This document shows positions 5,543-40,383 of a DNA stretch of 64,000 nucleotides, in pieces. Positions within the stretch are counted from its first letter, which is position 1. Each line of letters opens with the position of its first letter. A program made the translations under genes and the position numbers. The notes beneath the pieces are model-generated. The model did no database searches. It was not told the origin of the DNA and saw only the letters and a program-made list of their open reading frames with translations. Source of the stretch: Asterias amurensis (Eukaryota; Echinodermata; Asteroidea; Forcipulatida; Asteriidae); assembly GCF_032118995.1 (NCBI RefSeq), contig NC_092659.1, forward strand, positions 8,845,177 to 8,909,176, written 5' to 3'.

Positions 5543-5839
5543 CTACAGCATCAAGTTGACCGGCTCCTTAGACAAATGGAAGATTAGTTTGATCACTGAC
5601 TCAAACTTCGTAGTGTAGAGGCCAGCGAGCGGTTCGATGGAGGCTGTGTACGTCTTGCACTGAAGCGTGATGTCTTTCTCTTTCTCTAGGAGGTCCAAGC
5701 GTACAGCGACGTAGGGATGCTTGTACATAGCTCGCTTGGTCTTGTTGGTGGTACCCACGAAGGGGTAGTAGTAGAAGGGTACACCACCCGAGGGGTACAT
5801 ACGGGTGTTGTTCCCTATCTGTTCGGGGTGCTTATTTTT
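5543..5839 (-). CDS. ATP1B: Cassette A exon 6 (C-terminal, with stop)
   Basis: This exon encodes residues 213-310, the extracellular immunoglobulin-like C-terminal part that contacts the alpha subunit. Family motifs are PFYYYPFVGTTNKT and YVAVRLDLL, then the last conserved cysteine in ITLQCKTY. The acceptor is CCTCCTACAG at phase 0. The protein ends in EPVNLML, with no KDEL-like tail, unlike cassette B. Sequons: N222 and N244. Confidence 0.95.
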   Translation of the reverse strand, partial: KNKHPEQIGNNTRMYPSGGVPFYYYPFVGTTNKTKRAMYKHPYVAVRLDLLEKEKDITLQCKTYTASIEPLAGLYTTKFESVIKLIFHLSKEPVNLML

Positions 5840-8800
5840 CTGTAGGAGGAATAATTGGAAACACCAGTTTCATTAAAAGCACTGGATACTATTGGTTATT
5901 ACTCAAACTAAATGTTAGCATAAAAAATAACTTGGTATCAAGTAATGGAGAGCTGTTGATAGTAAAAAACATTGTGAGAAACGGCTTCCTCTGAAGTAAC
6001 ATAGTTTTTGAGAAAGAACTAATTTTCCACTAAAATATTTGAATTCTATTTTGAGACCTCAGAATTAGATTTTGAGGTCCCGAAACCAAGCTTCTGAAAG
6101 CACACAACTTTGTGTGACAAGGGTGTTCTTTCTCCCATTATTAGTTTGCAACTTCGACGACCAATTGAGTTCAAATTTTCACAGGTTTGTTATTTTATTA
6201 TTTATGTTGAGATACACAAAGTGAGATGATTGGTTTTTGACAATTACCAAATGTGTCCAGTGTCTTTAAAGAGTTTTGATAACTTTTTAGATCAAGTTTT
6301 TTGGCCACGACGTGAATCCCTACTCACTGTGAATGAAGATGTATGTATATGTAGTATAATTTTCATGTAGAAATTTCAGCTTCATTAGTCGTCACATTTC
6401 GAGAACTCCATTCACTTTGACTGGATGGGACACTGGCTTGTGACGAAACTGAGCGATTTAGTTCTAGGTGGTTTAAAAAGTCAAATAGTTCATAGATTGT
6501 TTGCTTCGTCAGGGATTCTGCGCCAGGAGTGTACCTGTGACAGACATGGCGCATTTTAAGTCTCCTATATTATTTATTAAATGTGTTGTCACACTAGGCT
6601 CTTCACAACATAAACTAATGGATTTGGGTCCGGGAGCAGATTTATAAAGAAACAAATAAAGACCCCCAAGTTAAGCCTGGTTCATACTTCCTACGAATGC
6701 AATGCGGAATTGACTTCACAAATTTGCAATGAATAATTCCCATAAGTTGAAATGTGCTGAACTCCTACGAAACATTTGTTGTGAAAACGCCCATGTGAGG
6801 TCAAAATTCGTATCACATTCTTGGGGAAGTATGAACCAGGCTTAACTTGGGGGGTCTTCATTTGTTTCTATATAAATCTGCTCCAGGACCCAAATCCATT
6901 TGTTTTTGTTGCGTAGAGTGTAGTGTGACAACACATTTAATAATAATAATAATAATATAGGAGACTTATAATGCGCCATGTCTGTCACAGGTGACACTCC
7001 TAGTGCAGAAACCCTGACTAAGCTAACATCTAGGTACTATACCACATAGAACAAAATCGCTCAGGTTTTAATCATATTCCGATGTACTTACGTAGGAGCC
7101 GCATTTGAAGGCAATATGTCCAGTCTCATATACATCAGCAACTTCCTTGGGGATTTCACTGGCTTCATAATCCTCGGGCTCCCACTCCACAACCTGAGAA
7201 AGATCAAGAGTCAACTTATAAGAAACAGTGGTGTGTCATGGTCGAGCGGTTAAGAGCGCCGGATTCAAGCTCTGGTGTTTGATCAGCAGAGTGTGGTTTT
7301 TTGAATCCCGGTCGTGACACTTGCTACGTAAAATTTGGGAGGTAGTGCTTTCTGCTCTATCGGCCAGGCTACAGACTGATGATACCCAAGTCTACATCCG
7401 TGTGGACTGTAAAAAGGGTAACCCTGTTTCAGCCCTAGGAGTAGGTGGCAATGGCCTCTGGAATAAAATAATTGTAGCCCACACCTTGAAGTGGCCTTCA
7501 GGCCTTGTGTGCCTGGCGACTTGCATACAAAAACCAAAAATAAAAAAAGAAATAATTTAAAAAGTGACGAGAGTCAATACTGACAAAAAAGGCCAGAAAC
7601 TTGGATTGGATCAACATATTGGGAAGAATGTTGAAATAATGGGACTTTCAACTTTGATTCTCTATGAGCTCATCTAATTTTTTTGCTCAAACCCCTCCAC
7701 CCCCCCTCCCGTAACCCAAAGGAAATTTAAATGACAAAAATGAAAATAAAAAAAACAGAATTAGCTGTTGCAAACTGCTTACCAACTAAAATGACTTACA
7801 GTATAAATGCAAAAAATACTTAATGGCCTGACCCTAGCAGAGTCTTTCTCGAAGGCTAAATGACAACACAACAAGCATGAACAGGGGCCAATTTCATAGA
7901 GCTGCTTAAGCAAAAACTGTGCTTTAGCACAAAAATAGCTTGCTTATTTTACACATGTTACTGGCCAAAATTTCATGCCAAATACATTGCTTGTGACTGG
8001 TATTTAGCTGTTGTTTACTTAGCATAACAATTGAGGGGAGTCATGGCTGGTAATCTGATTTCTATAAGCAAGGACTTTTTGCTTAAGCAAAATTTTGTGC
8101 TTAAGCAGCTCTATGAAATTGGGCCCTGGTATCTAAAGTGTAACATAAGCAGTGAAGCAGAAACACATGAATAAAAATCGTACATTTTAAGAAAGTTTTT
8201 CTTGTCTATGATTTGGTTACTTAAGACAGCGAGATTCACAAAAAAAAACTGTTGCTGCTGTTCTGACACATTAATTTGGTCACCGAGCATGATTTTCTTT
8301 TAGAAGTCCCGCCACCAAGAGGTTAAACCTTGCCTACATTCAAACACAGTAACTGTAAGTGTTCGTTGAATATGACAGTATTGCGAAGGTTGTGGGTGTG
8401 ATTCTCTAGGAAGTACTGAGTAAACATTGCTAACACACATTGGTCTATTAGGGTAAAACCAAATTTATCACCACAATACTTACGCGGTTCAAACTCAGAA
8501 AGATACATGGCTTGGATTTGTCGTAGCCAAAGTCTGGAGGGACGCAATATTCACCCAATTTTTCACGGTTAAACATGCAGTACTTTCCGGTCGGTGGACC
8601 AGCCGTACCCTCACAGTTGACATATCCTTGTTCCTTAGTCTGATTGGCAGGGTCAAGAGCTGCACGGAAAGAAAAAAAAACCCAGTTTTATGAAACATTT
8701 ACGCAGATAATTTAAGGTCTATCCGAATGTGAGACTTTTGAACACTAGGTGGCAGCAGACTAACCAGGTAAGTTTCCATTGATTGCATATTTTTTGCTTA

Positions 8801-10559
8801 TGTTGAGGTACACCAAGTGAGAAAACTGGTCTTTGACAATTACCAATAGTGTCCAGTGTCTCTAACAAGTTGTAAAACATCTTAAATTCAACTATCCAAA
8901 TTTAAGGCCTTCAAGTGGTCTGGGTACTTTTTGTAGGACAAAAAACACTATGTCCTCACAGATTTAAAGGAACACGTTGCCTTGGATCGGTCGAGTTGGT
9001 CTTTGAAAAGCGTTTGTAACCATTTGTTATAAAATGCATATGGTTAGAAAGATGTTTAAAAAGTAGAATACAATGATCCACACAAATTTGTCTCGAAATT
9101 GCGCGGTTTTCCTTTTACTTTGTGAACTACCACGGTCGGCCATTTATGGAAGTCAAAAATATCTCGAGTTAGGACGAGTTACTAGCCATATGTTTTTACT
9201 ACCTCCTAGGACTAGTCTTAACTCTTTGTGAAATCGACCCCTGCGCCTTTTAAGAGGGTCTCCAAGGTCAAGTGCTGTGTGGCGTGTCATGGCCTAGCGG
9301 TTAAGAGCACCAGCCTCAAGCCTCTGGTGTTCAGCAGAGTGTGGGTTCGAGAGTCATGACACCTGTGTCCTTAAAACAAGACACTAAACCATGATAGTCC
9401 CTCCTTCAAATGGGACTTAAAGCCGTTGGTCCTGTGTGTTGTTTAACGCAGGAATAGAACCCCGAGGTTTGCCCCAATGTTCCTCGTCTAATCAGCAGCA
9501 AATTGTACCTTAGCAAATAAATAAATAAATAAAATAAATAAATAAAAAATAAAAATAGCACCTTGTAAACCATTACATGGTGCTATAAAGATTCGGTCTC
9601 AAAGTTTAAGCGTAGTTCCACATCTTGCAGGAAATACTGTTTGTTACAGCGCCAGGAGCGTCACTGAGTGTCGGACATGCGCGCTATATGAGAAGCCACT
9701 ATCTTATTATACTCACAATCCCAGATAGCCTGCAGTTGGTCGACATACTTTGCGTAATCGTTGTTATTGGCAGCTGAGAATTTGATGATTCCATCCTCAC
9801 TCTTAGGCGTGTTGGTCAATCCTTTAAAGAGAACAAGTTAAAGGAACATGTTACCTTGGATTGGACGAGTTGGTCTATAAAAAGCGTTTGTAATAAAATG
9901 CATATGGTTAAAAAGATGTTTTAAAAGTAGAATACTTTCCTTTTGCGAACTACCACGGTCGACCATTTATGGGAGTCAAAAATTTGACTCCCATAAATGG
10001 CCGACCGTGTTAGTCGACGAAATAAAAGGAAACCGTGCAATTTCAAGGCATGTTTGTGTCGATCATAGTATTCTACTTTTACATCTTTCTACTCACATGA
10101 ATTTTAACGCTTTTCAAAGACCAACTCGACCGATCAAAGGCAACAGACCAAAATTATTAGAGGCCAAAATTATTAGAGGATACGTTCGGTAATCACTGTT
10201 TTGGTGAGAAGCCTACAGCAGCTTTCGCTAGTATAGAGCGCTTTGAGAAACATTTCAGATGTGCTTACGTAAATCGATACCAGAATAATGCTTAACAGCC
10301 AAACTACCATGCCACATGTACAATTTGTGACTGGTATCCTGCTCATTTTTGCTTAGCAAAAAAGTGTCAAGCAATATATTATGTTCTGCTTAAGCAGCTC
10401 CTTGAAACTGGGCCCGGGTGTTGGACTTACCAGGTCGGCTAACATAAGAGCTATAGGTAGGTTTTTCCAAGTCCACAGTTTGCAAGAAGACGTAGAGCAG
10501 ACCGGCCCAGAAGGCTGCCAGACATGCATAGTAGATCACATAGAAGAGAGTTATTTGAG
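5543..10559 (-). CDS. ATP1B: Na+/K+-ATPase beta-subunit cassette A (exons 2-6)
   Basis: Five exons (10431-10559, 9717-9821, 8484-8659, 7092-7193, 5543-5839) encode the transmembrane segment and whole ectodomain of a P-type ATPase beta subunit. Beta subunits are type II glycoproteins that fold, stabilise and deliver the alpha subunit to the plasma membrane. Joined to exon 1 at 30964-31087 the product is 310 residues, the usual family length. The membrane helix is at about 43-66. Six ectodomain cysteines (135, 147, 158, 171, 209, 273) match the three family disulfides. N-glycosylation sequons are at 125, 222 and 244. All introns are GT-AG, with phases 1,1,1,0,0 as in cassette B and gene C. No private exon 1 was found between 10560 and 15805, so the cassette either splices to the distant exon 1 or lacks a recognisable start. 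Confidence 0.93.
5873..6269. mobile_element. TTAA-flanked MITE, family A
   Basis: It begins TTAAAAGCACTGGATACTAT and ends with GTGTCCAGTGTCTTTAA. It contains the family words AACGGCTTCCTCTGAAGTAA and TGTGTGACAAGGGTGTT. This is a slightly diverged copy. Confidence 0.8.
6503..7021. repeat. Long inverted repeat with about 190-base arms
   Basis: The arm at about 6503-6693 is repeated inverted at about 6822-7021, with a loop of about 130 bases. Matching words are GACAGACATGGCGCAT with ATGCGCCATGTCTGTC, and AAGCCTGGTTCATACTTCC with GGAAGTATGAACCAGGCTT. One arm carries an AAT microsatellite expansion. The innermost part looks like a separate small element nested in a larger one. Its edge lies about 70 bases from cassette A exon 5. 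Confidence 0.75.
7092..7193 (-). CDS. ATP1B: Cassette A exon 5
   Basis: This exon encodes residues 179-212 (34 codons, phase 0 at both ends). It contains the motif EWEPEDYE and conserved cysteine 209 in AFKCGSY. The acceptor is TTCTCAG and the donor GTAAGTAC. The equivalent exon in cassette B is 105 bases and in gene C 120 bases. Confidence 0.94.
7232..7560 (+). mobile_element. tRNA-derived SINE, body type 2
   Basis: The head looks like a tRNA-Leu/Ser gene: GTCATGGTCGAGCGGTTAAG (A box) and TTTTTTGAATCCCGGTCGTG (B box). The body is unrelated to that of the SINEs at 20282, 39655 and 52277. It ends in an A-rich tail (CCAAAAATAAAAAAAGAAAT). It lies in cassette A intron 4, antisense to the gene. 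Confidence 0.75.
7882..8128. mobile_element. MITE with AATTTCATAGAGCTGCTTAAG ends
   Basis: The terminal inverted repeats read CAGGGGCCAATTTCATAGAG at the left and the inverted form, ending GAAATTGGGCCCTG, at the right. A well-kept copy is at 62515-62760. Diverged relatives are at about 10281-10420, 12430-12617 and 15096-15248. Confidence 0.8.
8484..8659 (-). CDS. ATP1B: Cassette A exon 4
   Basis: This exon encodes residues 120-178 (176 bases, phase 1 in, phase 0 out). It holds four of the six conserved ectodomain cysteines (135, 147, 158, 171) and sequon N125 (NQT). It ends with the family motif KPCIFLSLNR just before the donor GTAAGTATTG. Gene C has an exon of the same length. Confidence 0.95.
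8964..9240. mobile_element. TTAA MITE family E fragment joined to another element
   Basis: It begins TTAAAGGAACACGTTGCCTT, matching the end of the fuller copy at 9838-10146. It breaks off near CGGCCATTTATGGAAGTCAAA, where it meets ATCTCGAGTTAGGACGAGTT of the unrelated palindromic family. The join suggests insertion into the MITE's central palindrome. Confidence 0.6.
9275..9556 (+). mobile_element. tRNA-derived SINE with ATAA tail
   Basis: A box TGGCCTAGCGGTTAAGAGCA; B box GTGGGTTCGAGAGTC. The body contains AAAGCCGTTGGTCCTGTGTG. It ends in repeated AAAT/AATA units (about 9517-9556). It lies in cassette A intron 3. Confidence 0.8.
9717..9821 (-). CDS. ATP1B: Cassette A exon 3
   Basis: This exon encodes residues 85-119 (105 bases, phase 1 to phase 1), the stalk just outside the membrane. 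The translation includes GIIKFSAANNNDYAKYVDQ. The donor is GTGAGTATAA. The acceptor CTCTTTAAAG has a short pyrimidine tract, and a MITE end (9838) lies 15-17 bases upstream of it. Confidence 0.93.
9822..10430. other. Cassette A intron 2
   Basis: About half of this 609-base intron is one TTAA MITE (9838-10146). A diverged fragment of the GAGCTGCTTAAG family occupies about 10281-10420 and runs up to 10 bases from the exon 2 donor. Confidence 0.7.
9838..10146. mobile_element. TTAA MITE family E with central palindrome
   Basis: It begins TTAAAGGAACATGTTACCTT and ends with CCAACTCGACCGATC plus AAAGGCAAC in inverted sense. The centre is a near-perfect palindrome (GGGAGTCAAAAATTTGACTC) flanked by CCATTTATG and its inverse. 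The two halves are inverted copies of each other. Confidence 0.75.
10431..10559 (-). CDS. ATP1B: Cassette A exon 2 (transmembrane)
   Basis: This exon encodes residues 42-84 (129 bases, phase 1 to 1). It reads AQITLFYVIYYACLAAFWAG and continues through the single membrane helix to QTVDLEKPTYSSYVSRPG. The FY..YY pattern is typical of beta-subunit membrane segments, which pack against alpha helix M7. Acceptor CTACCCCACAG; donor GTAAGTCC. Confidence 0.95.
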
Positions 10560-15805: not shown

Positions 15806-16096
15806 TTAAAGCTCATCCTTCTTCACGGCGGCGGTCATTTCAAACTCGTAGGTGGCGATCGACTCGTAGTCTGTGTCATAGAGTCCCCCCTTGGGGGCGA
15901 TGTTGCCGACGTAGGTCCTGCATTCAACCTTTATCTTGAGATCCACCTCCAGCAGGGCAAACTGAACAGCGACGTACGGCTGGACATAGGAGTCTCTCTC
16001 AGTCTTGTTGGTGCTCCCCTGGAAAGGGTAGAACCGGAAGGGGATCCCAGCGGCGGGATAGACGGTGGCGTTGACTGCGTCTACTTGTTTGGCTTT
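15806..16096 (-). CDS. ATP1B: Cassette B exon 6 (C-terminal, with stop)
   Basis: This exon encodes residues 211-306. Motifs are PFRFYPFQGSTNKT, YVAVQFALLE and the last cysteine in KIKVECRTY. The final codons read AAG AAG GAT GAG CTT then TAA, giving ...VKKDEL. The acceptor TTTTTTTTTTTACAG is strong. Cassette A ends differently, and gene C ends in IMVTE. Confidence 0.95.
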   Translation of the reverse strand, partial: KAKQVDAVNATVYPAAGIPFRFYPFQGSTNKTERDSYVQPYVAVQFALLEVDLKIKVECRTYVGNIAPKGGLYDTDYESIATYEFEMTAAVKKDEL

Positions 16097-19000
16097 CTGT
16101 AAAAAAAAAAAGGACAATTATTATACAGGTGAACAGGTCTGGAGAGCCATTTTCATATTGCGAAAAGTCCTACTCTAAACGGAATTTCTTTTTTCATCAG
16201 GGAAAAACAAACCAGAATTCGTTTAAAAATGGAGAAATCACATTCCTGTAAGAGTAATTCCTGTAATTTTCTAAGAGTTTTGTACATATCACTTTAAAGT
16301 ACATCAGGTAGAAGTTATGCCATGAATTGTATATTGTGTATGTTGACTTGCTAAACTGACATGTTGTAGAAACAAATATTCTGCAAATGTCGGGCTGACA
16401 TGTTCGCAAAAGAGAGGAGGATGTCACGGTCAGGTGTTCATAAAATAACACCCCCCGTTTAATTTTGGTTAATTCCTGCTTTGCGTAGCGCCCCCTACGT
16501 TCTCATTTGTATTTCTCGCCGTTAGCGTCATTATTAAATTGGCCGAACTATCATCAACATCTCTGTTCATCCAATTTACAGGTACATGTATGATTCTTAT
16601 TTATTTTATTATAACTTTATGCATTATTTCTTAAACTTTCAAGTCTTACCTATTTATCAATAGAATGCATGATAATTGATTGTTTCTTTAAATCAACATA
16701 TATTTGTGCTATTCAGTGTATTTTTAATCAACGTTCTTTTGGTAAACATGAGATATGTGAATCGCCAAGATGGCGACCGGGATTTAGTTTTATTTATTTT
16801 CCATTTAAGCTATTCGTAATTATTGTTTAACTGTTATTGTTTAACTGTTATTGTTTAACTATTTTGCTTAATGTGATTCTTAAATTGGCCGAACTATCAT
16901 CAACAACTCTGTTCATCCAATTTACAGATTCGATCTGACAATAAACCATATTCAAGAGATCTGCAAATCCAGTTTCCCCGTGCCTTATTAAACAGTGACT
17001 TCTAACAACATCGCTATGGTCACAGGTACTTTTTCAAAATGTCCATAGATTTACATAAAACTTACAGTTTGAAGATAATGATATTAGAAAGCTTCCCTTA
17101 AAAAATTACTTACTGAGGTGACGTCGTTTTTGAGAAATGAGTAAAACAATGTCACGTCAATAATTTTCGTCTCAGTTTTAGCTTGTAAAACGTATTAACC
17201 AGTTGTTGTATGTTATGGTCTAATACCATAACTTGTTAATGAATTTTGACACACTAAAATAATTTTCGACTCACTGAGACAAAAGTTATTTTGTGACTTG
17301 TTTTACTCATTTCTCAAAAACTATAGCACCTCAATAAGTAATATTTGAAGGGAATCTTGCTACTACCATAATGATCAAACCGTGTTAGTCTCATGTAAAT
17401 CTGTAGACATTTTGAAAAAGTACCTGAATCCTTTAATAGCGCACTGACAACTTTTAGTGGCAGTGACGTCATTACTCTTTTAGAATTTGTATGTGAGTGT
17501 GTTTCTGCAGTGATCTTTTATTAATACGGCAAACTGAAAACAGTCTGCATGCAACTTACATAGCTTCGGCAGTAGAAAGCAATGTTTCCGGGTACGTAGA
17601 ATTTTTGAACTTCTTCAGGCAATGAAGACACATCACTGTAATCCTCAGGCTCCCACTCCGATACCTGTGAAAATAACACACACAAAATAATGACAAAAAG
17701 TAATAATAAATAATAATATATGCATGATATTTGGCCCTTGGAAAAAAAGTAGGAGTCAAATTTTGAGCACAAGGGCTGAGCTACTTGATCAGTTGGTGTA
17801 GGCTTTAATAGACTTTTCAGGTTACTTAAACGCAGTTTTTCTGCCTTTTCCAAAGGAAGAAAAATCAGACAACAGACTTTGGTAGGAAGTACGGAGCTCC
17901 AGAACTGCTATCCAACATAATTGAGTACATTTCAGTAACTCAAAATGTTGGATGGCCCTCATGGAGCTCTGTAAGGAAGATTAATTTAGCACCTAATAAA
18001 TGTTGTGTAAATTATTACTATTAATAGACCCTTCCCATGAAATATGTAAATTGCACATTGTTTTGTACATGGCTAATGGGTGCATGACGCAGACGCAATT
18101 GTGCGTCTGCTTAGTGCACAACTCTATGGTGTTTGCCAACCAACAGGGTATGTACGCATGCGTGAATGTTATTAGCATATTTCATTGGGAAGGGTCCATT
18201 GGTTAAAGGCAGTGGTCACTATTGGTAATTACTCAAAATAATTTTTAACATAAAACTTACTTGTATTAAACAAGCAATGGAGAACTGTTGATAGTATGAA
18301 ACATTGTGAGAAACGGCTCCTTCTGAAGTAATATATTTTTTTGATAACGCAATTTTTCACGAATTTGACTTCGAGACCTCAGAATTAGATTTTGAGGTCG
18401 TGAAATCAAGCATCTGAATGCACTCAGCTTTGTGTGACAAGGGTGTTTTTTCTTTCATTTTTATCTTGCAACTTCGACGACCAATTAAGCTCAAGTTTTT
18501 ACAGGTTTGTCATTTTATGTATATGTTGACATACACCATAGACTGGTCTTCGACAATTACCAATAAGTGTCCAGTGTCTTTAACCGACTGGCCATTTTGG
18601 CTCACTTACCCTGTTGAGACTGAGGAACAGGCAAGGTTTGCCCTCATCCCAGCCAAAGTATGGTGGTTGGCAACTTCCAAAGACATTGCGGTCAAAGCGG
18701 CAGGCCTTGCCGTCACCATCAGTCTCGTTAGCACAATCATCAAACATATCGCCGGTCATCATGCCTGGATCCAGTGCTGCAATAACACAAACAGGAAAAT
18801 GTTGGTATTTCAAAAGTACTTTAAAGGTAGTGGACATTATTGGTAACTACTCCAAAACAATTGTTAGCATAAAAACTTACTTGGTAACAAGCAATGGAGA
18901 GCTGTTAATAGTATAAAACTTTGAGAGAAACGTCTCCCTCTGAAGTAGCGTAGTTTTCGAGAAAGAAGTAGTTTTGATTGAATTTTATTTTGAGACCTCA

Positions 19001-20877
19001 GAATTAGATTGAGGTCCCGAAATCAAGCATCTGAAAGCACACAACTTCGTGTGACAAGGGTGTTTTTTTTCTTTTATATTTATATTGCATATTTATGCAT
19101 ATGTTGAGTTACACCAAGTGAGAAGACTGGTCTTTGACAATTACCAAAAGTGTCCAGTGTCTTTAATAATAACAATAAAGACTTGTAATGCGCACAAAGC
19201 CCCACTGCTGGGTATCCAAGGCACAGTGTAACCAAAAACAAAACGAAAGAAAACAGACACAAGAAAATAAGTCTCTTGATACCAGTGACATAAGATAAGT
19301 TTTGAGAGGAGATTTTAATGTTGTGGTTCAAAGACAAGATATAAGATTAAGTGGTAAAGAGTTTCAGATGCATGGCGCAATGCTTGGTAATAAGCATTGG
19401 AGAGCTGTTGATAGCATTAAGACATTGTACGAAATGACTACCTCCCAATTAAAGGGAAGAAACACGTTTGGTAGTTACTCAAAACAAATATTAACTTCAA
19501 AACTGACTTAGTAACGAGCGATGGAGAGCTGTTAATAGTATATAACATTGTGGGAAACGACTCCCTCTGAAGTTATATAGTTTTTGAGAAAGGGGTAATT
19601 TCTCTCTAAAATAATAAAAGACTTCTAGCTCGAAGTCTTTTACTCTCATCTGAAACACACAAACCCGTCCAACAAGGGTGTTTTTCTTTCATCATTTCCT
19701 CACAACTTCGATGACCGATTGAGCCCAAATTTTCACAGCCTTGTTATTTTATGGTTATGATGGGATACACCAAGTGAGAAAACTGGTCTTTGACAATTAC
19801 CAACTGTGTACCTTCCCTTTAACATATTTTATCTTTGGATTTAAAAGCCCTAATCTGCAACTCAGGACATTCTATATGGTTTAATATTCAAGTTCTTATG
19901 AATTTGATCTTATTTATTAAAAATTAAAAATTAAGAAGAAAAAAAAAATTTAAAACAGAGAAATCACATTTCTGCATAGCGGACACCACTCCCCTCTCCA
20001 CATTGTTACCCAAGAAACTTAAAGAAGTCAACTTACAATCATAGATGTCTTGAAGTCCGTCAGTGTGACTTGCGAATGTGTTATTGTTATTAGGGTCGAA
20101 CACAACAGGTTTATTATCAAACCTGGGTCGTAGAGATACACCTGTTGGGAGAACATAAAAAGGGTTGAGAATAAAATTATAATGAATCACCTGTCGAGAA
20201 AAGCTTCAAGATGTTTTTTTTCTCCTTGAGTGTCGGTGCAAAAGCAAAACAATTGTGCACGTATAACTGTAGAAATAACAATAATACTTGGTTCTTACGT
20301 AGCCCTTTATCACATCTCTAAGGGGTGTTTTAAAGTGCTCAATTTCTTTTTATTTCCGGCAAGGTATGTGGAGCTACAGATTTTGAAGTGTGGGACATGT
20401 TCCTTTAAAGCATCATGTAATGGTTTACAAGGTGCTGTTGGGCTATATGCTGCTGATCAAACCAAAAATACAGGGGAGGCCCCTTCTCTTTTCGATAAAT
20501 GCACTGGGTTCTTCTACGTGCATTACAAAAGTTTTTGTCCCATTTGAAAAGAATGAAGCAACGTTTTTAAGTATCTTGCTTAAGGAGAAAGGTGTCACGA
20601 CTGGGACTCGAACCCACACTCTGCTGATCAGAAACACCAGAGCTAGAGTATGGGGCTCTCAACCGCTAGGCCACGACACACCACCGAGCTCGACAACGCC
20701 AGCTTTGGGTTAACCTTTGATTTCGAGAAGAAATTAAGGAAAATTTACCTGGAACATTGACGTAGGAGTTGAACGTTGGCTTATCAGGGCTGACAGTCTG
20801 CATGAAAATAAACAGCATCAACGCCCAGAACAAAGCCAAGCAAGTGTAGAAAATCAAATAGAAGATTCCGATTTGAC
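15806..20877 (-). CDS. ATP1B: Na+/K+-ATPase beta-subunit cassette B (exons 2-6), KDEL-ended
   Basis: Exons 20749-20877, 20037-20141, 18610-18776, 17560-17664 and 15806-16096 encode a second beta-subunit transmembrane segment and ectodomain. With exon 1 (30964-31087) the product is 306 residues. Ectodomain cysteines are 134, 145, 155, 168, 207 and 269, the family's three disulfide pairs. Sequons are at 104, 136, 219 and 240. Splice sites are all GT-AG with phases 1,1,1,0,0. It is the nearest cassette to exon 1 and so the likeliest default partner. Its last four residues are KDEL, on the luminal side of a type II protein, which is not usual for this family. Confidence 0.93.
16535..16927. repeat. 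Direct repeats flanking about 300 bases
   Basis: The sequence TAAATTGGCCGAACTATCAT and the following 27 bases, ending CCAATTTACAG, occur at 16535-16581 and again at 16881-16927 with one or two changes. Between them lie three tandem TGTTTAACTGTTAT-like units. This could be a small retroelement remnant or a tandem duplication. Confidence 0.6.
17023..17426. mobile_element. MITE with CAGGTACTTTTTCAAAATGTC ends
   Basis: The left end CAGGTACTTTTTCAAAATGT is repeated inverted at the right (CATTTTGAAAAAGTACCTG). The halves are extended inverted copies, e.g. GAGAAATGAGTAAAACAA against TTGTTTTACTCATTTCTC. A fragment is at about 1365-1440. Confidence 0.75.
17560..17664 (-). CDS. ATP1B: Cassette B exon 5
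   Basis: This exon encodes residues 176-210 (35 codons, phase 0 at both ends), reading VSEWEPEDYSDVSSLPEEVQ and on to AFYCRSY with conserved cysteine 207. Acceptor TATTTTCACAG; donor GTAAGTTGC. The open frame runs into flanking intron, but the splice sites match cassette A exactly. Confidence 0.95.
18025..18199. repeat. Fold-back element
   Basis: The arms TAGACCCTTCCCATGAAATA and the inverted form near 18177-18199 (TTCATTGGGAAGGGTCCA) enclose a smaller palindrome GACGCAATTGTGCGTC. It lies directly beside the MITE at 18203. Confidence 0.65.
18203..18583. mobile_element. TTAA-flanked MITE, family A
   Basis: It begins TTAAAGGCAGTGGTCACTAT and ends GTGTCCAGTGTCTTTAA. It has the inner hairpin around GAGACCTCAGAATTAGATTT and TGAGGTC. 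Confidence 0.85.
18610..18776 (-). CDS. ATP1B: Cassette B exon 4
   Basis: This exon encodes residues 120-175 (167 bases, nine fewer than in A and C). Four conserved cysteines are at 134, 145, 155 and 168, and a sequon at N136 (NET). It ends KPCLFLSLNR. Acceptor TGTGTTATTGCAG; donor GTAAGTGAGC. Confidence 0.95.
18821..19166. mobile_element. TTAA-flanked MITE, family A
   Basis: It begins TTAAAGGTAGTGGACATTAT and ends GTGTCCAGTGTCTTTAA, with family words AACGTCTCCCTCTGAAGTAG and ACACCAAGTGAGAAGACTGG. Confidence 0.85.
19449..19822. mobile_element. TTAA-flanked MITE, family B
   Basis: It begins TTAAAGGGAAGAAACACGTT and ends GTGTACCTTCCCTTTAA. The interior is related to family A, but the centre reads AAAAGACTTCTAGCTCGAAG. 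A second copy is at 36976-37352. Confidence 0.85.
20037..20141 (-). CDS. ATP1B: Cassette B exon 3
   Basis: This exon encodes residues 85-119 (105 bases, phase 1 to 1), including VVFDPNNNNTFASHTDGLQD with sequon N104. Acceptor TTCTCCCAACAG; donor GTAAGTTGAC. Confidence 0.94.
20282..20690 (-). mobile_element. tRNA-derived SINE, full-length Leu-like family
   Basis: The head, at the high-coordinate end, reads on the plus strand as GGGACTCGAACCCACACTCT (inverted B box) and CTCAACCGCTAGGCCACGAC (inverted A box). The body includes TATGTGGAGCTAC, TTACAAGGTGCTGT and TTTATCACATCTCTAAGGGG. Related copies are at 39655-40035 and 52277-52607, with a partial copy at 48890-49150. It lies in cassette B intron 2, co-oriented with the gene. 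Confidence 0.8.
20749..20877 (-). CDS. ATP1B: Cassette B exon 2 (transmembrane)
   Basis: This exon encodes residues 42-84 (129 bases), with membrane helix QIGIFYLIFYTCLALFWALM and the following stalk QTVSPDKPTFNSYVNVPG. Acceptor CTTTTTACAG; donor GTAAATTTTC. Confidence 0.95.
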
Positions 20878-30963: not shown

Positions 30964-31087
30964 CCCAGCTCTTCGCATTTCGGCCTAGAACCTCTCCCTT
31001 CTCTGAATCCCATACAAAAATACGGAATGCTGCCCAATTTGTTCGGACATTATCCATAAAACTTGGCTTGTTTTCTTCACCACCCAT
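30964..31087 (-). CDS. ATP1B: ATP1B first exon (cytoplasmic N-terminus) for the minus-strand cassettes
   Basis: This exon encodes residues 1-41 plus one base (phase 1). The short cytoplasmic tail begins MGGEENKPSFMDNV and ends with the family's pre-membrane motif FVWDSEKGEVLGRNAKSW. The start codon has a strong context (AAC ATG G). The donor GTAATTATT follows AGCTGGG. Exon 2 of cassette B (9 kb away) and of cassette A (20 kb away) both join in frame. Only this one recognisable exon 1 exists for the two cassettes. A missed exon 1 for A cannot be excluded by eye. Confidence 0.92.
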
Positions 31088-32780
31088 GTTGAGTTCTTAT
31101 CCGTACACCGGCGAAATTAGCGAGAGAGAGAAAATTTGTGCATGAGCAATGTATGCAACCCCCCGCGCACACCGACGTCGAATCACACAGCATAAAAACA
31201 CACACGAGAGAAAAATGCATGAGTTACAGACTGGTACCCTTTAAAGTATTCCATAAAATTTGTATTCAAACTAATAATTGGTCACTGTAAATACGTCTGG
31301 GCGTATGACAACTCACTGGTACCTTTTGCTTTTGGTTACCAGTGAGTGCGCTCATTATGCAAATTAGGGAGGGGGAACGTCGCGGTCGTAAAACCAATAC
31401 CTGTTTTGTTAGAAGTTGCCATTGGTTGATAAATGGTTCATTGATCGAGAGCGCCTGTTGTGAGCACACACGCCGTACCTGGGCCACCGGGGCAGTCCAC
31501 GCCCATGCTTTAATACCCAAATTTGTGTTTGGAAAAAAGAGGTTCTGCAGAAAGAAAAAAAATGTTGTGGTGGCCGGGAAGACTGGGGTGATGATGACGA
31601 TGAAATAGCCATGGGCGGGGGTGGGGTGAAATAGTGCTGGTTCTGATATAATGCATACTCTCCACATATCGGGATGTACACACGCAGGTGACTGAGCAGC
31701 AAGGTTGACATAAAAGTGCCCCCTTATGTCCATAGCTTGAAGTTTTCCCTTAAACATACCAAGCTTGTTAATAAACATGTCATTTTGAGTAGACTAACTT
31801 TGCAATACAAATCCATCCATCACAGAGTTGCAATTGATGTTGACCAATTATAAGTTGAATTGATAAAGGGGGCACAATCTCAACTAAACAATTATCCTCA
31901 ATTTCCATAGGCTAAATCTTGAGTAATTCCGCAAACTGAAAAAGCAAACCCGCCACAGAATTCTTGCATAGCGCCCTCTTTCGGTGAAACCATGCACGCA
32001 CTGTTTGTGGCCACGATCCAGTGAGAGCCCAATAAAAGCTTGGAGGTAGAAATATAAAAGGGATCAGTAAAAGAAAAATGTTGCCCAATAATTGTGACCC
32101 CGGGGTTGTTGACTTCCGTTGGATGACATCGGCCCTGAAATAATGGTCCACTTACCGAGTGTATTGCACAATTAATTTCAGATTGATTCTCAGACGTTTG
32201 GAAAATTACACATGTGTAGGGGTGTTTTATTAGGAGGGGCTCCCAAATCAAATTTAGTAGTGGATAAAAGTTCAAGAGTGAATAAATAATTTCCTTTTTA
32301 CTGTTAAAAGCTGTGATTCTTTTAAGTTGTTTGTGTATCTTTTAGTTTAGCATTTTGCACAGCAGCTACCTTGTGATACAATGGGAGTTTATTTAGTGGA
32401 TACACCCGGAAAGCCCACTGCCAATTCATGTTGAAGGAAGCGTGGGCCCGTTTTAAAGAGGTTATCTAGACAAAATTAATTGTTGATGTTTATCACAGAG
32501 GTACCACATAAAAATAGAGGCATACTCTTTTGGTACTACCTTTTCGGCATTACAGTGAGTCCTAACACCACAAAGCAATAGGCCCACCGTGCAGAGAATT
32601 ATTTACCATTCTGTTTTTCATGTCATTAACTTTTTCCGTGCGATGGGAGAAGAGTGCCACTTTAAGGATGATGAAATTTGTAACGGAAGAGCGTAACAAA
32701 ATAGTAGGCCTACTTCCACTTACATGTTTAGAACAATCAAGTAGAGTCATTCACTCATTCAAAGAAGAGAATTGGTTACA
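31088..32780. promoter_or_regulatory. Divergent promoter region between the minus-strand gene and gene C
   Basis: These 1.7 kb separate two head-to-head start codons. The part next to the minus-strand gene is CpG-rich with a GAGAGAGAG tract. An octamer ATGCAAAT is at 31357-31364. A hairpin (ACTCACTGGTA against TACCAGTGAGT) lies at 31311-31347. No clear TATA box was fixed for either gene. A 170-codon minus frame (31266-31778) has no family signature and is not called. Confidence 0.45.
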
Positions 32781-33456
32781 ATGGCCGAGCAAATTGAAGT
32801 CTCACCTCTAGAAGAACCAGAAGCAGAACGGCCCGATGGGGAGCAGCCCAAAAAGCCTCTAGAAGAGGGTGTAGAACCGGCAACAGAACAGCCCGATGAG
32901 GAGCAGCCCCAAACGAATACAGAAGGGGGTGCAGAACCAGCAGAAGAACAGCGCGATGAGCAGCCCCAAACGCCCACAGGAGGTGCAGAACCAGTAGCCG
33001 TACAACCCGACGAGGAGCAGCCCAAAAAGCCTCTAGAAGAGGGTGTAGAACCGGCAGCAGATCAGCCCGATGGGGAGCAGCCCCAAACGCCTATAGAAGG
33101 GGATGCAGAACCGGCAGCAGAACAATCCGGTGGGGAGCAGACTAACAATTCTACAAAAGGGAATACAGAACCAGTTGCAGAACCAGTAGCAGAACAACCC
33201 GATGGGGGCCCGCCCAAAAAGCCTGCAGATGGGGGTGCAGAGCCAGCAGCAGAACAGCCCGATGCTGGAGTGCAGCCCAAAAAGCCTACAGAAGGGGGTG
33301 TAGAACCAACAGCAGAACCGGCTGCAGAACGGCCCGATGGGGAGCCGCCCAAAAAGCCTCTTCTCACAACGATCAGAGAAGAGTGGCACAGCTTTCATAC
33401 ATTTGTGTGGAATTCTGAAAAGAAGGAGTTTATTGGACGAACTGGCAAGAGCTGTG
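32781..33456 (+). CDS. ATP1B: Gene C exon 1 (repeat domain plus pre-membrane tail)
   Basis: Start chosen at ATG 32781 (MAEQIEVSPLEEPEAERPDG), which has a strong context (ACA ATG G); the frame upstream has only a TTG. The repeat unit approximates EPAAEQPDGEQPKKPLEEGV, with variants QPQTNTEGGA and QTNNSTKGNT. The exon ends in phase 1 before GTAAGTTTTC. At DNA level it is a roughly 60-base coding minisatellite. In the tail, the Trp seen in exon 1 of the minus-strand gene (AKSW) is Cys (GKSC). Confidence 0.93.
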
Positions 33457-34977: not shown

Positions 34978-35010
<33 letters not shown>

Positions 35011-38000
35011 GTGACAACTTCAACGACAACGACAACGACAACAACAACGACAACACAATGACAATGCTCACGACGACAGCGACGGCGACGACGACAACAG
35101 CAACATCAACAGCAACATCCAGCAACAGCAACAACAACAATAGATGCTAAATAAATGTGTTATGGTTTTCTTTTGTTTTTCACAGCGCAGATTACTTTGT
35201 TTTACATTTGTTTCTACACGTGTTTGGCCGGATTCTGGGCAGCTATGTTCGCCATTTTTTACCAGACAGTTTCCCTGGAAAGACCGAAGTACACATCCCT
35301 CATTACTCCACCAGGTAAGAAAGCTAAAACACAGTCCCAAGTATACTGTTAACTTAAACAGCGCCCTCTTTTGAATTCCTTCGGCATCCTTGCTATGATT
35401 ATGCAGATCCCAGGTTAATCATAATAAACTGTCCCAATCGGGGTTTACTTATAATCTGGTTGAAACTAAACTTCCCTTTATAGGGGTACCAGCCGTACCC
35501 AATCGGGTAGGGAAGGGTCACAACTGATGAATTGAAACAGTGCCGCATTGTGGCCGTGTCAAAATTCGGCGCCCTTGCACTAGACTTGATTCAAGTCCCA
35601 TTCTCGTGTGAGAGGTCCCTAAGCATAATTATACCCCAAGTTATTATGGGTGCGTTCGTTTAGCTTCCCTGGGTCGACCCCGGTGTGTGGCATTTTTGAT
35701 TCCCAGGACGAACGTGGGTAATTGTCTGCACACGTTTGTCCTGGAAAAAAAACCCCGCTACACACCGGGGTCGACCCAGGGAAGCTAAGCGAACGCACCC
35801 TATAAAACAACACGTAGCATACAGTGCTGCGCGCTCGCCGTCAAATAATGTGGTCCAGAGAATGCAGAGCATCACAAAACAGTATTTTCCTGGGGATGGC
35901 ACGGGATTGGGCCTTGAGTCAAGTCTACCCTTGCACCTAAGCGGAGAATGGTGATCGTAAGCCAAGCGCAGAATTCGGCGTCAAGCAGAGCCATGAAATT
36001 GGGCCTTGACGTCACACTTCAAGCCATTATACACTTTCGGTTAACAGTATTGTCCAAGTCCCACACTTCGTGTGTATCACAACTTATATATAAAATAACA
36101 ATCCTGTGGAAATTTAGGCTCAATCGGACATCGGAGTCGGGAGACGGGAAAACCCACTCCTGTTTTCGCGCGTATCACCGTGTCATGACATGTGTTTATA
36201 ACAAATCCGTAATTCTCGCTAACGAGAATTTATATTGTTTTACCGTTTTCTCAAAAAGTAAAGCAATTCATGGACTAATATTTCAGAGAAGTCTTTCACC
36301 ATTACCTTCTGTATAAAACCCTGTAAATTATTTGTAAATCTGTGAACTTTTTTTTTCTGTACCGAAAGGGTCCAATGGCTTTAAAGGCAGTGGACACTAT
36401 TGGTAATTACTAAAAATAATTATTATCATAAAACCTTTCTTGATTACGAGCAATGGGGAGAGGTTGATAATATAAAACACTGTGAGAAACGGCTCCCTCT
36501 GAAGTGCCATAGTTTTTGCGAAAGAAGTAATTTTCCATGAATTTGATTTCGAGACCTCAAGTTTGGAACTTGAGGTCTCGAAATCAACCATCTAAACACA
36601 CACAACTTAGTGTGACAAGGGTGTTTTTTCTTTCATTATTATCTCGCAAGTTCGATGACCGATTGAGCTCAAATTTTCACAGGTTTGCCATTTTATGCAT
36701 ATGTTGAGATACACCAACTGTGAAGACTAGTCTTTGACAATTACCAATAGTGTCCACTGCCTTTAAAGGCTCGTGAATAACGCCAAAGAGGTGCCTCTAG
36801 CATAGGTCAATCCCCAGTCCATAATCACCTTTCACATGGAGAGATACGCATTTAAACCCTACATTATATTAAAGCGAGTCATATATGTACATTTCCATGA
36901 TCTGTGTTATTATTGGTCGAGTTGGTGCTCGGCAGCTGCATCCACATCACCTCGTACAAATCAGTGAAACACAAATTAAAGGGAAGGTACACGTTTGGTA
37001 ATTGTCAAAGACCAGTCTTCTCACTTGGTGTATCCCAACATAAGCATAAAATAACAAGCCTGTGAAAATTTGAGCTCAATTGGTGGTCGAAGTCGCGAGA
37101 TAATAATGGGAGAAACAACAACCTTGTTGGATGAACGAATTTGTGTGCTTTCATATAGGAATAAAAGACCTTTGGCTAGAAGTCTTGTTTTATTTTAGTG
37201 AGAAATTACCTCTTTCTGAAAATCTATGCTACTTCAGAGGGAGCCGTTTCTCATAGTGTCTTATACCATCAACATCTCTCCAATGCTCGTTACCAAGTCA
37301 GTTTTTAAGTTAATATTTGTTTTGAGACACCAAACGTGTACCTTCCCTTTAATATGGACAGATTACGTCACTGCACGCTTATGTAATGACACCCTTGTTG
37401 ACAATGAAATTACATGGTTCTAAAGCAAGTACCTGTTTTTATCGCCTTCTATCTATACGCGTCCGCGCAAATAATGAAATATTTCCGGTGTTTACTATTT
37501 TCAGGTTTGAATGTGATGCCGTATTCTGTCGATGGTAAACTGATCCAGTACGGAACGACGGAGGATAGAGCAAGAATTAAGGAAGAAATCCAGAAAAATG
37601 TTCTTAATGGTAACTTTCATATTATGACGTCCAATAAGAGACATCGTGAGATGGGTCTTTTTCATTCATTTTTCTCTTACAATTTCGATGACCCGACTGA
37701 GTCATAATTTACACAGATACATGTTGCATTTTGGGTCGCACCTAGTGAAAAAAAAAACTGGTCTTTGATAATAATCAAAGGTCAAGTGCCTTTAACCAAC
37801 ATACTAACATTACACTGTTTATCTTAAAGCCACCTGGAAATAGAGTTTTTTTTCTTTCAAACATAAGAGTATATGCTTACGAACAATAAAACAATTTTTT
37901 TAGTAATTGTTTGTCACGATTTATATGTTAAAAAAATATATAAAGTTTTTGGGGGCTGACTCCGTCTACCCCTTTTGTGACGTCAATCGAGGCAGACTTA

Positions 38001-40383
38001 GCCTGCAATGCGTATAGTAAACACAATTGCAAAGTACATGTACGTCCAAGTCGTGAGTTGGTACATTTCAAAAAGTGTTTTTCTGCATTCAGCAGCAATA
38101 CACCTGGTCGGCATTGCCGGGGGAAAAAAAAAATTGAAACGTTCAAACTCACGATTTGATCCGTACATGTACTTTGCAATTGTGTTTACTCTACGCATTA
38201 CAGGCAAAGTCTGCCTCGATTGACGTCACGAACAGCGCCCTCTCGGGTCGGGGTCTACTCTTAAAATTGTAAATAACATAAGAACTGATTTTTTAAAACC
38301 TTAGTTAACTGTTTATTCACATTCCACTCATCAAAACACATATATTAGTGACAAAAGCTTTATTTTGAAAAAATACCACTTCCAGGTGACTTTAAACACG
38401 TGGGAAGGTGTGTCATAATAGAACCCAGTGATGGAGTAGATCAACTCCTCCTTGGTGACGTTGTGTAAAACGGTAACGAGCTCAAACTTCCTTAAAGTTA
38501 GAGAAAGTTTTGAGAATGTTAGTCTGCCCGCCTGATGTTGCCAAAAAGATATTAGAGTAAACCGCATTGATCTAGATAACATAAACAATATCTCCACTAC
38601 ATAAAATAGAATTCAAGTGCTATCTGTATTGGTAACGAAAGTGGAAAATAACACATAGATCGATTTTTGCTTAAACGTAGTTCTCGCCAGAGATCAGTCC
38701 ACGTTCGAGGATTGTGAAAACCTTCCACCGGTTCTGAAAATAGCTAACCCGCCTGAGCAAAGATTCTGCCAGTATGATGTGTCCCAACTCGGCCCCTGCG
38801 CAACCAACGATAGCTTCGACACCAATCAGCCATGTTTGTACATGGGACTAAATAAGGTATGTGTCAATCAGAACTGCTGTCATTTGTCAACCTCGTGGCT
38901 TCCCCGTCTTCCACCGATGCTGACTTCAAAACCAACACCACAAAACCCCCCAAAACAGAACACAAAAAATAACTACAAACAACAACAAAACATCAATAAA
39001 CCCTAGCAAAAACAACAATAACGACAAAGAAAAAGACAAAGACAAAGACAGCGACAGTGGCAACGACAACAACAACAACGACAACGACAGTGCCAGCAAC
39101 AGCAACAACAACTAGCAACAACAACTGCAACGGCAACGGCAACGGCAAATATAGTGACAACGAGAGCAACAACTACAACAACAACGACAACAGTAACAAA
39201 ATCAACAGCATCAGCATTAACATCAGCAGCAAAAACAACAACAACAACAACAACATCGACAACGACAACGACAATGACACTAAACAGCAACATCAGCAAC
39301 AACACAACACAACAACGCCAGCATCAACATCAACAACAGCGAAGACAACAACGACATCAACAAGTATTGTATTATTGTGTTATTTATATTGTATTGTATT
39401 ATTTATATACTTTGTCCATATATTTTGTCTACAGCTTTGGGGATGGATACCTGAGAACTATGAGCCCGGGCCACCGGATGAATTGACTGAAATCCGCAAT
39501 AAATTGAAACTGAACGGAACTACAGAGGACCGAATAGCTGTCACGTGTATCAAGGTAAAATGATCAAAACATGCACACAATGTAATCAGAAAAGGGCAAG
39601 TTACTGTTCCATCAATACGCATGTCATGTTTCGAAATGCCCGCCGAGCTTATGATACTAGGTTCTAATATAGCGCTTTATCACATTCCTAGGGGCGCATC
39701 AGAGCGCCCAGTATTTTGCCCTGTAAGGTATGTGGAGCTACGTTTTGAGACCTATTCCGTTGAAACACCATGTATTTTTTACAAGGTGCTGTTGCGTAAT
39801 AATAATAATAATATGCTGCCGATCAGACCAGGAACACCGGCGCGAACTACTTCTCTTTACGTGCGTTACACACCACACGGAACCAACGGCTTTACGTCCC
39901 ATCCGACGAACGAAGCAATGTTTAAATGTCTGGCTAAAGGACCACAAGTGTCACGACTGGGACTCGAACCCACACTCGGCTGAAAAGAAACACCAGAGTT
40001 TGCTCTTTACTTACTGCTCTGCCACGACACTTTCAGTGTTTGTGGTGTTCATGCTGATGTCTATTCATTAAACAAAAAGTCGTTTTAATTTTCTCCATCA
40101 GTGTGACCGTAACAACAGTACAAACTGCTCTCCCCTTGATGTGTACCCAAGAGACGGTATATCCTTTGGTCATTACCCGTACGTCGTGGGTACCGACAAG
40201 GCGAAACAAGCCCGCTACATCCGCCCCATCGTAGCCGCTAAGGTTCCTCTCGACGCAGTCGGCAAGGAATACAGGGTCAGCTGTCGAGCATGGGCGGGCA
40301 ACCTGAATGAAGTAGTCGGAGGTCTGTTCGACAGCAGAGTCGAACCGGCGCGTTTCAGCATCAGGATAATGGTAACCGAGTAA
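32781..40383 (+). CDS. ATP1B: Gene C: ATPase beta subunit with a long repetitive cytoplasmic N-terminus
   Basis: Six exons (32781-33456, 35186-35314, 37505-37609, 38681-38856, 39435-39554, 40102-40383) give 495 residues, against about 305 for ordinary beta subunits. Residues 1-191 are about nine Pro/Glu/Gln-rich repeats of roughly 20 residues. Residues 192-225 match the normal pre-membrane tail (FHTFVWNSEKKEFIGRTGKS). The helix lies at about 227-250. Ectodomain cysteines 315, 333, 343, 355, 400 and 463 are the family set; 403 and 411 are extra. Sequons are at 346, 389, 406, 407 and 410. Intron phases equal those of cassettes A and B. Vertebrate ATP1B4 (BetaM) is a known beta relative with a long charged N-terminus; here the resemblance is only by analogy. 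Confidence 0.93.
33915..34308. mobile_element. TTAA MITE family A, reversed
   Basis: It starts AGACACTGGACACTATTGGT and ends GTGTCCACTGCCTTTAA. The central hairpin is made of GAGACCTCAAAATC and GAGGTCTCGAAATC. It is oriented opposite to the copies in cassette B introns 3 and 4. Confidence 0.85.
34943..35140 (+). repeat. CAACGA-type simple repeat next to exon 2
   Basis: It is mostly ACAACG and CAACAA units on the plus strand, so the transcript has a CA-rich tract with no T-rich counterpart. A similar tract precedes exon 5. Confidence 0.85.
35186..35314 (+). CDS. ATP1B: Gene C exon 2 (transmembrane)
   Basis: This exon encodes residues 226-268 (129 bases, phase 1 to 1), helix QITLFYICFYTCLAGFWAAM followed by QTVSLERPKYTSLITPPG. 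Acceptor TTTGTTTTTCACAG; donor GTAAGAAAGC. Confidence 0.96.
35648..35800. mobile_element. Short MITE with GGGTGCGTTCG ends
   Basis: The roughly 43-base inverted ends begin GGGTGCGTTCGTTTAGCTTC and are almost perfect. The interior repeats GGACGAACGTGGGTAATT. The flanks suggest a 3-base target duplication (TAT). A second copy is at 41960-42111, flanked by AGT. Confidence 0.85.
36018..36384. mobile_element. TTAA MITE family C, reversed
   Basis: It starts TTCAAGCCATTATACACTTT and ends CCAATGGCTTTAA. It shares CCTGTTTTCGCGCGTATCAC and the AATTCTCGCTAACGAGAATT palindrome with the copy at 1866. Confidence 0.8.
36381..36766. mobile_element. TTAA MITE family A
   Basis: It begins TTAAAGGCAGTGGACACTAT, using the same TTAA that ends the previous MITE, and ends GTGTCCACTGCCTTTAA. 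It is a well-preserved copy with full family words. Confidence 0.88.
36976..37352. mobile_element. TTAA MITE family B, reversed
   Basis: It begins TTAAAGGGAAGGTACACGTT and ends GTGTACCTTCCCTTTAA, with perfect inverted ends. It lies in gene C intron 2. Confidence 0.88.
37505..37609 (+). CDS. ATP1B: Gene C exon 3
   Basis: This exon encodes residues 269-303 (105 bases, phase 1 to 1), including PYSVDGKLIQYGTTEDRARI. Acceptor TTTACTATTTTCAG; donor GTAACTTTCA. Length and phase are identical to the equivalent exons of A and B. Confidence 0.94.
37610..38680. other. Gene C intron 3
   Basis: It contains a degraded MITE end (37655-37797) and an inverted-repeat element (37978-38228). The rest has no coding signal. 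Confidence 0.65.
37978..38228. repeat. Inverted-repeat element with about 75-base arms
   Basis: GTGACGTCAATCGAGGCAGA at the left is matched inverted at the right (CTGCCTCGATTGACGTCAC). The arms continue through CACAATTGCAAAGTACATGT. The inner loop carries AGTGTTTTTCTGCATTCAGC. Confidence 0.75.
38681..38856 (+). CDS. ATP1B: Gene C exon 4
   Basis: This exon encodes residues 304-362 (176 bases, as in A), with cysteines 315, 333, 343 and 355 and the ending QPCLYMGLNK. The acceptor at ACGTAG was chosen over CGCCAG ten bases on because only the former keeps phase and matches cassette A's exon length. Donor GTATGTGTC. Confidence 0.92.
38857..39434. other. Gene C intron 4 with CA-rich repeat
   Basis: Most of the intron (about 38993-39362) is a CAACAA/CGACAA-type simple repeat. 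Long Thr/Asn-rich or Val/Leu-rich frames over it, on both strands, are artefacts of the repeat. Confidence 0.8.
38993..39362 (+). repeat. CAACGA/CAACAG simple repeat next to exon 5
   Basis: Imperfect ACAACG, ACAACA and GACAAC units run for about 370 bases and stop 72 bases before the exon 5 acceptor. The same base pattern and strand as the intron 1 tract. Confidence 0.88.
39435..39554 (+). CDS. ATP1B: Gene C exon 5
   Basis: This exon encodes residues 363-402 (40 codons, phase 0 at both ends), starting LWGWIPENYEPGPPDELTEI and ending IAVTCIK with conserved cysteine 400; sequon N389. Acceptor TTTTGTCTACAG; donor GTAAAATGAT. It is 15-18 bases longer than in cassettes B and A. Confidence 0.94.
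39655..40035 (-). mobile_element. tRNA-derived SINE, Leu-like family
   Basis: It fills most of gene C intron 5, antisense to the gene. The inverted B box reads GGGACTCGAACCCACACTCG and the body TATGTGGAGCTACGTTTTGA. An AAT-type run (AATAATAATAATA) sits in the middle. Confidence 0.8.
40102..40383 (+). CDS. ATP1B: Gene C exon 6 (C-terminal, with stop)
   Basis: This exon encodes residues 403-495. It begins CDRNNSTNCS, an extra cysteine pair enclosing overlapping sequons, then the family region GISFGHYPYVVGTDKAKQAR and YIRPIVAAKVPL, and the last conserved cysteine (463) in RVSCRAW. It ends IMVTE. Acceptor TTTTCTCCATCAG. Confidence 0.95.
   Translation, partial: CDRNNSTNCSPLDVYPRDGISFGHYPYVVGTDKAKQARYIRPIVAAKVPLDAVGKEYRVSCRAWAGNLNEVVGGLFDSRVEPARFSIRIMVTE

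Follow-up and report, generated by a model that had tools for sequence, protein, structure and literature searches.

Gene C of the starfish Asterias amurensis lies within the 64,000-nucleotide stretch of DNA analyzed here (the window), and its first exon encodes a 192-residue N-terminal tail, after which a beta subunit of the Na,K-ATPase family follows in frame. We read the tail as a lineage-specific coding minisatellite within an otherwise ordinary beta subunit. With a probability of roughly 70%, gene C specifies an X,K-ATPase-type beta subunit that still serves the pump and bears a flexible acidic tail, the sequence and length of which are loosely constrained. The tail appears genuine, and its copy number is variable.

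Exon structure of gene C

The gene model comprises six exons on the forward strand, located at 32781..33456 (start codon, repeat tail, and the pre-membrane motif, TTIREEWHSFHTFVWNSEKKEFIGRTGKSC), 35186..35314 (transmembrane helix), 37505..37609, 38681..38856, 39435..39554, and 40102..40383 (stop codon included). All five introns have a GT donor and an AG acceptor, and the product is 495 residues long. The acceptor of exon 4 was picked on the basis of homology to P0001, an annotated Asterias rubens protein, and an alternative AG 12 bases downstream means that a start of this exon at 38693 is also possible. Exon 1 is spliced to exon 2 in phase 1, from a donor at 33457 (GTAAGT) to an acceptor that ends at 35185 (TTTTTCACAG). 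The original prediction had joined 33456 to 35186, and the join appears to be borne out at the protein level by P0001, which gives the same reading of exon 1 and continues across the junction in its annotation.

Five other open frames of the window were scanned against Pfam, and no family was matched in any of the five. By eye, the introns of gene C contain related-looking stretches, in either orientation, around ‘aattgtcaaagaccagtcttctcact’ at 33920–34310, 36380–36770, and 36980–37350, which look like dispersed repeats, and two introns contain simple repeats rich in CAA/ACAACG (34978–35139 and 39042–39363).

The tail is encoded by an imperfect 60-bp repeat

The minisatellite occupies positions 32814..33356 of the forward strand (residues 12–192) and consists of nine units, u1–u9, of 54–72 bp. 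These encode 18–24 residues each, with exactly 20 residues (60 bp) in five of the nine, have a consensus close to EPAAEQPDGEQPKKPTEGGA, and are 65–90% identical to one another in pairwise DNA comparisons. Tandem Repeats Finder reports a period of 60, 8.3 copies, and a score of 380 for exon 1; among 100 dinucleotide shuffles of the exon, a score of at least 30 was reached in 25, with a maximum of 63. The units, the repeat finder, and the shuffles thus confirm the description of the tail as about nine Pro/Glu/Gln-rich units of about 20 residues derived from an imperfect 60-base repeat. It was also correctly predicted that the repeat runs in frame into the pre-membrane motif and a beta domain, which matches Pfam PF00287 (Na,K-ATPase beta; E 5.7e-48, profile positions 4–271 of 284, obtained with a 491-residue provisional form of the protein).

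The 192 residues of the tail include 39 Glu, 35 Pro, 22 Ala, 20 Gly, and 18 Gln, and the 50 acidic residues (D+E) against 14 basic ones (K+R) give a net charge of −36. We also considered that the tail might be an array of SH3-type docking sites, but its six PxxP motifs are no enrichment over the shuffled mean of 6.0.

The start codon at 32781 has a good context, with A at −3 and G at +4. Another ATG lies upstream in a poorer context and is followed six codons later by an in-frame TAG at 32742–32744 (32724..32744, forward strand). In A. rubens, a Gln is found at the residue that matches this TAG, and the annotated start is located further upstream, adding 19 residues that include several Arg and Lys, at a place where the window has the stop codon. 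Given the poorer context of the ATG at 32724, both Asterias proteins more likely start at MAEQ. One could instead suppose that transcription or translation starts downstream, such that the array is mostly untranslated and lies outside the main protein, and the name ‘isoform X2’ of the A. rubens protein does imply that another form exists. We regard this as highly improbable, since the frame is open across all nine units whilst both alternative forward frames of exon 1 contain stops, the nine units all align in one reading frame, the A. rubens annotation includes the array as protein, and the well-placed ATG at 32781 supplies the only Met of the entire tail.

Tail length and the origin of the array

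A homology search found 53 proteins, of which 32, picked without a fixed rule, were aligned. Ahead of the conserved GR of the pre-membrane motif, there are 218 residues in the window protein, 220 in A. rubens (201 if counted from MAEQ), and 20–70 in the other 31 aligned sequences, and the tail is, as had been claimed, far longer than ordinary beta tails. When all 53 proteins were scanned with a looser motif, seven gave no match and, apart from P0001 and P0051, the maximum was 75 residues; the 148 residues obtained for P0051, a low-quality monkey model, are probably a wrong match. An additional homology search returned four proteins, none of which was new, perhaps because words from the tail filled its list of candidates, and a literature search at the level of titles and abstracts found no repeat-tailed beta subunit in an echinoderm. 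By eye, the Xenia sp. protein P0035 (438 aa) appears to contain the beta-subunit ectodomain twice in tandem, which may be a gene-model artefact.

The orthologue clade of gene C comprises Asterias, Patiria, and Acanthaster, with a support of 100/100. Patiria is placed in Valvatida, to which Acanthaster also belongs, and Asterias in Forcipulatida. The proteins of Patiria miniata (P0002, 337 aa) and Acanthaster planci (P0003, 343 aa) are 51–52% identical to gene C over the searched part, but they lack the repeat array and retain a Trp at the membrane edge. The simplest reading of these array-free orthologues is that the array grew on the Asterias side. They nevertheless have 64 (Patiria) and 70 (Acanthaster) residues before GR, versus 33–34 in the other echinoderm rows, which makes part of the lengthening look old and the array a newer addition. 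Most likely, the array would have grown from a tail of moderate length, such as the 64–70 residues of the Patiria and Acanthaster proteins, and a 60-bp segment of exon 1 may have multiplied by slippage or unequal exchange. The idea that a single ancestral unit served as the seed was tried as well. A unit-like motif in Patiria, SQPDGEP, is suggestive in that species alone (shuffle P 0.0055 against the consensus and 0.008 against the whole tail), and there is no such signal in Acanthaster (P 0.62 and 0.58, respectively), so a single-unit seed is not claimed.

Copy number differs between two Asterias records

The A. rubens protein P0001 (497 aa), annotated as ‘sodium/potassium-transporting ATPase subunit beta-1-like isoform X2’, is 96% identical to gene C over the searched region and represents a four-sequence cluster, one member of which was seen. 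The comparison with the window was made at the protein level only. Beyond the tail, the two proteins align without a gap and agree at 295 of 303 residues, with eight differences (97%), whereas the tail has 165 identical and seven different residues together with 23 gap columns (1, 1, 1, and 20 residues). Both proteins have a long repeat tail, an identical order of units, and the same exon 1–2 join. The A. rubens protein differs in its upstream start, in three additional single residues, and in a 20-residue gap that corresponds to one repeat unit; the missing residues fall in u7, a unit of 24 residues at 33168..33239 (forward strand). Counted from MAEQ, the tail is consequently 192 residues long in the window and 175 in A. 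rubens. It had been suggested that copy number might vary between individuals; the variation shown is between these two Asterias records.

A pump subunit that tolerates a changing 60-bp coding repeat at its cytoplasmic end, as seen in two Asterias records and not in the Patiria or Acanthaster orthologues, is of interest in view of a survey of human protein repeats in which most unit numbers proved deeply conserved (PMC3995336). Against that background, a change in the number of units between near relatives is noteworthy. Were the tail neutral, it would show how little constraint there is on this end of the pump subunit; were it functional, it would make gene C a second, separate long-tailed beta subunit beside the mammalian BetaM.

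The units vary almost neutrally within a retained frame

Among the nine units, the true frame has a pN/pS of 0.89, as against 0.90 and 0.63 when the frame is shifted (MAFFT rows unchanged), so no special constraint is visible in the true frame, and purifying selection on the unit sequence was not detected by this comparison across frames. Differences among units are most frequent at second codon positions (0.30, vs. 0.14 and 0.22 at the other positions). With the gap in u3 placed by hand, 16 of 66 substitutions from the unit consensus are synonymous (27% expected, P 0.68), and none of the 66 creates a stop, compared with 2.7 expected (P 0.06, which is weak alone). Such codon tests may overlook selection that acts on charge, length, or disorder, and exchange may homogenize the units. 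Variation among the units is, in short, almost neutral, with the frame retained. A frame kept without any visible constraint on residue identity suggests to us a tail that is translated and under loose constraint. The cytoplasmic tail would then act as a flexible acidic chain, the exact sequence and length of which matter little.

Alternatively, the length and charge of the tail might be selected whilst its sequence drifts, with the number of units tuning the pump or the binding of a partner. The acidic, Pro-rich make-up would suit such a tether, as would the fact that both Asterias records have a long tail of like composition and unit order with the frame kept. We nevertheless consider this quite improbable, as only two records are concerned, the Patiria and Acanthaster orthologues are much shorter-tailed, and the sole motif tested, PxxP, is not enriched.

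The beta-subunit body and the comparison with BetaM

An AlphaFold2 model was made for A. rubens P0001 with 32 sequences, rather than for the window protein. Averaged over ten-residue blocks, its pLDDT is 32–47 over residues 1–180, 62 at 181–190, and 61–97 from residue 201 on. The tail has neither helix nor strand up to residue 196, and a helix spans residues 224–255; the tail of gene C is, by extension, predicted to be disordered. Among fold matches of the model in the PDB (E up to 0.001), all 39 are pump beta chains. The best match by sequence among solved structures is the Na,K-ATPase beta2 of Artemia (PDB 8k1l, chain B; E 7.6e-34), which has the pump beta fold but is matched from chain residue 39 only, with about 38 residues before it. 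With its membrane orientation inferred via homology, the protein would be a type II membrane glycoprotein, and it probably still serves as a pump beta subunit.

Many hallmarks of the family are intact. The pre-membrane GR motif is present in 32 of 32 aligned sequences, all of which also have Cys at the six ectodomain positions (P0001 residues 317, 335, 345, 357, 402, and 465); the alignment to A. rubens shows that the window protein has all six as well. In the membrane helix, Y234 is an invariant Tyr across the 32 sequences, and the Tyr and Phe-Tyr of the helix, which presumably face the alpha subunit, are retained. Other features set the Asterias proteins apart. Both the window protein and that of A. 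rubens carry Cys at the membrane edge, against a Trp in all 31 other aligned sequences; the codon concerned, 33453–33455, is the last whole codon ahead of the exon 1–2 join. The pre-membrane signature, which we take to end in this Trp, therefore has one residue altered in gene C of Asterias. Two further cysteines, at P0001 405 and 413 (encoded in gene C at 40102–40383), are in columns that have no Cys elsewhere and possibly form an extra disulfide. In the tree, the path from gene C of the window to that of Patiria is 1.04 changes per column, compared with 0.70 for body B of the neighboring beta gene (below) and approximately 0.51 for body A (branches summed by hand, A. rubens to Patiria). The faster change of the gene C body may be relaxed or adaptive. 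Taken together, the Trp-to-Cys change, the two extra cysteines, and the faster body hint at an altered function of the Asterias protein.

The original prediction had likened the tail to that of eutherian BetaM (ATP1B4). Published work describes ATP1B4 as having an N-terminal domain longer than 100 residues, in which an Arg-rich nonapeptide and two Glu-rich clusters occur, and as residing in the inner nuclear membrane, having lost alpha binding whilst keeping the beta signatures (PMC4778017, PMC9962273). By this description (PMC4778017), the two tails are alike in that they are long, acidic, and attached to a beta-family protein, and in nothing more: BetaM has Glu clusters and an Arg nonapeptide, whereas the starfish tail is Pro/Gln-rich and repetitive. 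No Glu-rich clusters occur in the starfish tail, in which the 39 Glu are scattered over the 192 residues without a run of at least three, and no Arg-rich nonapeptide was found at the N-terminus of the window protein, which reads MAEQIEVSP. With these two hallmarks missing, likeness to BetaM was rejected as the leading reading; the parallel finds no support beyond length and acidity, and the near-neutral variation of the units also speaks against it.

A change of role comparable to that of BetaM, in which the beta subunit no longer belongs to the pump and acts in another membrane or in a binding role, has to be weighed all the same. The long tail with its net charge of −36, the Asterias-only Trp-to-Cys change, the two further cysteines, and the faster body would all fit, and the retained beta signatures are no counter-argument, given that eutherian BetaM keeps them as well (PMC4778017); the intact body of gene C alone is thus no proof of pump function. 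We judge a BetaM-like change decidedly unlikely nonetheless, in view of the missing Arg-rich N-terminus and Glu runs, the near-neutral variation of the units, and the Tyr and Phe-Tyr kept in the membrane helix. A broader version, in which the variable acidic tail, the loss of Trp, and the extra cysteine pair have re-purposed the Asterias subunit for some other or added role independently of BetaM, also strikes us as unlikely.

In the tree, gene C falls among the starfish and the remaining echinoderm rows and away from vertebrate beta1–3 (ATP1B4 is not among the rows). Because the array is absent from the Patiria and Acanthaster orthologues, an origin of the tail separate from that in mammals would be the simplest reading of these sequences.

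A neighboring beta gene that appears to have two bodies

Upstream of gene C, the reverse strand contains a divergent beta gene, the first exon of which (30964..31087) is apparently common to two alternative sets of exons 2–6. Body B (15806..20877, reverse strand) matches A. rubens isoform X2 (P0008), and its nearest row is from A. rubens, at 98%; body A (5543..10559, reverse strand) is similar to isoform X1 (P0010) of that species. When five first-exon peptides were used in a permissive search, no second first exon appeared among the best 40 matches. In A. rubens, X1 and X2 have 41 identical leading residues and are then identical at 124 of 263 aligned residues, and in Patiria the respective figures are 40 leading residues and 138 of 262. 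The Acanthaster proteins P0004 and P0015 have no common leading residue, P0015 being annotated as partial and without that end. X1 and X2 fall into separate groups of the tree, each with Asterias and Patiria (body A of the window is not in the tree), which, together with the common leading residues, suggests that, in two starfish orders, one first exon feeds two anciently diverged bodies. The two upstream beta genes appear to be a single gene whose first exon is spliced to either body. Between this first exon and gene C, which face away from each other on opposite strands, lie 1,693 bp (31088–32780), and the interval is a possible two-way promoter.
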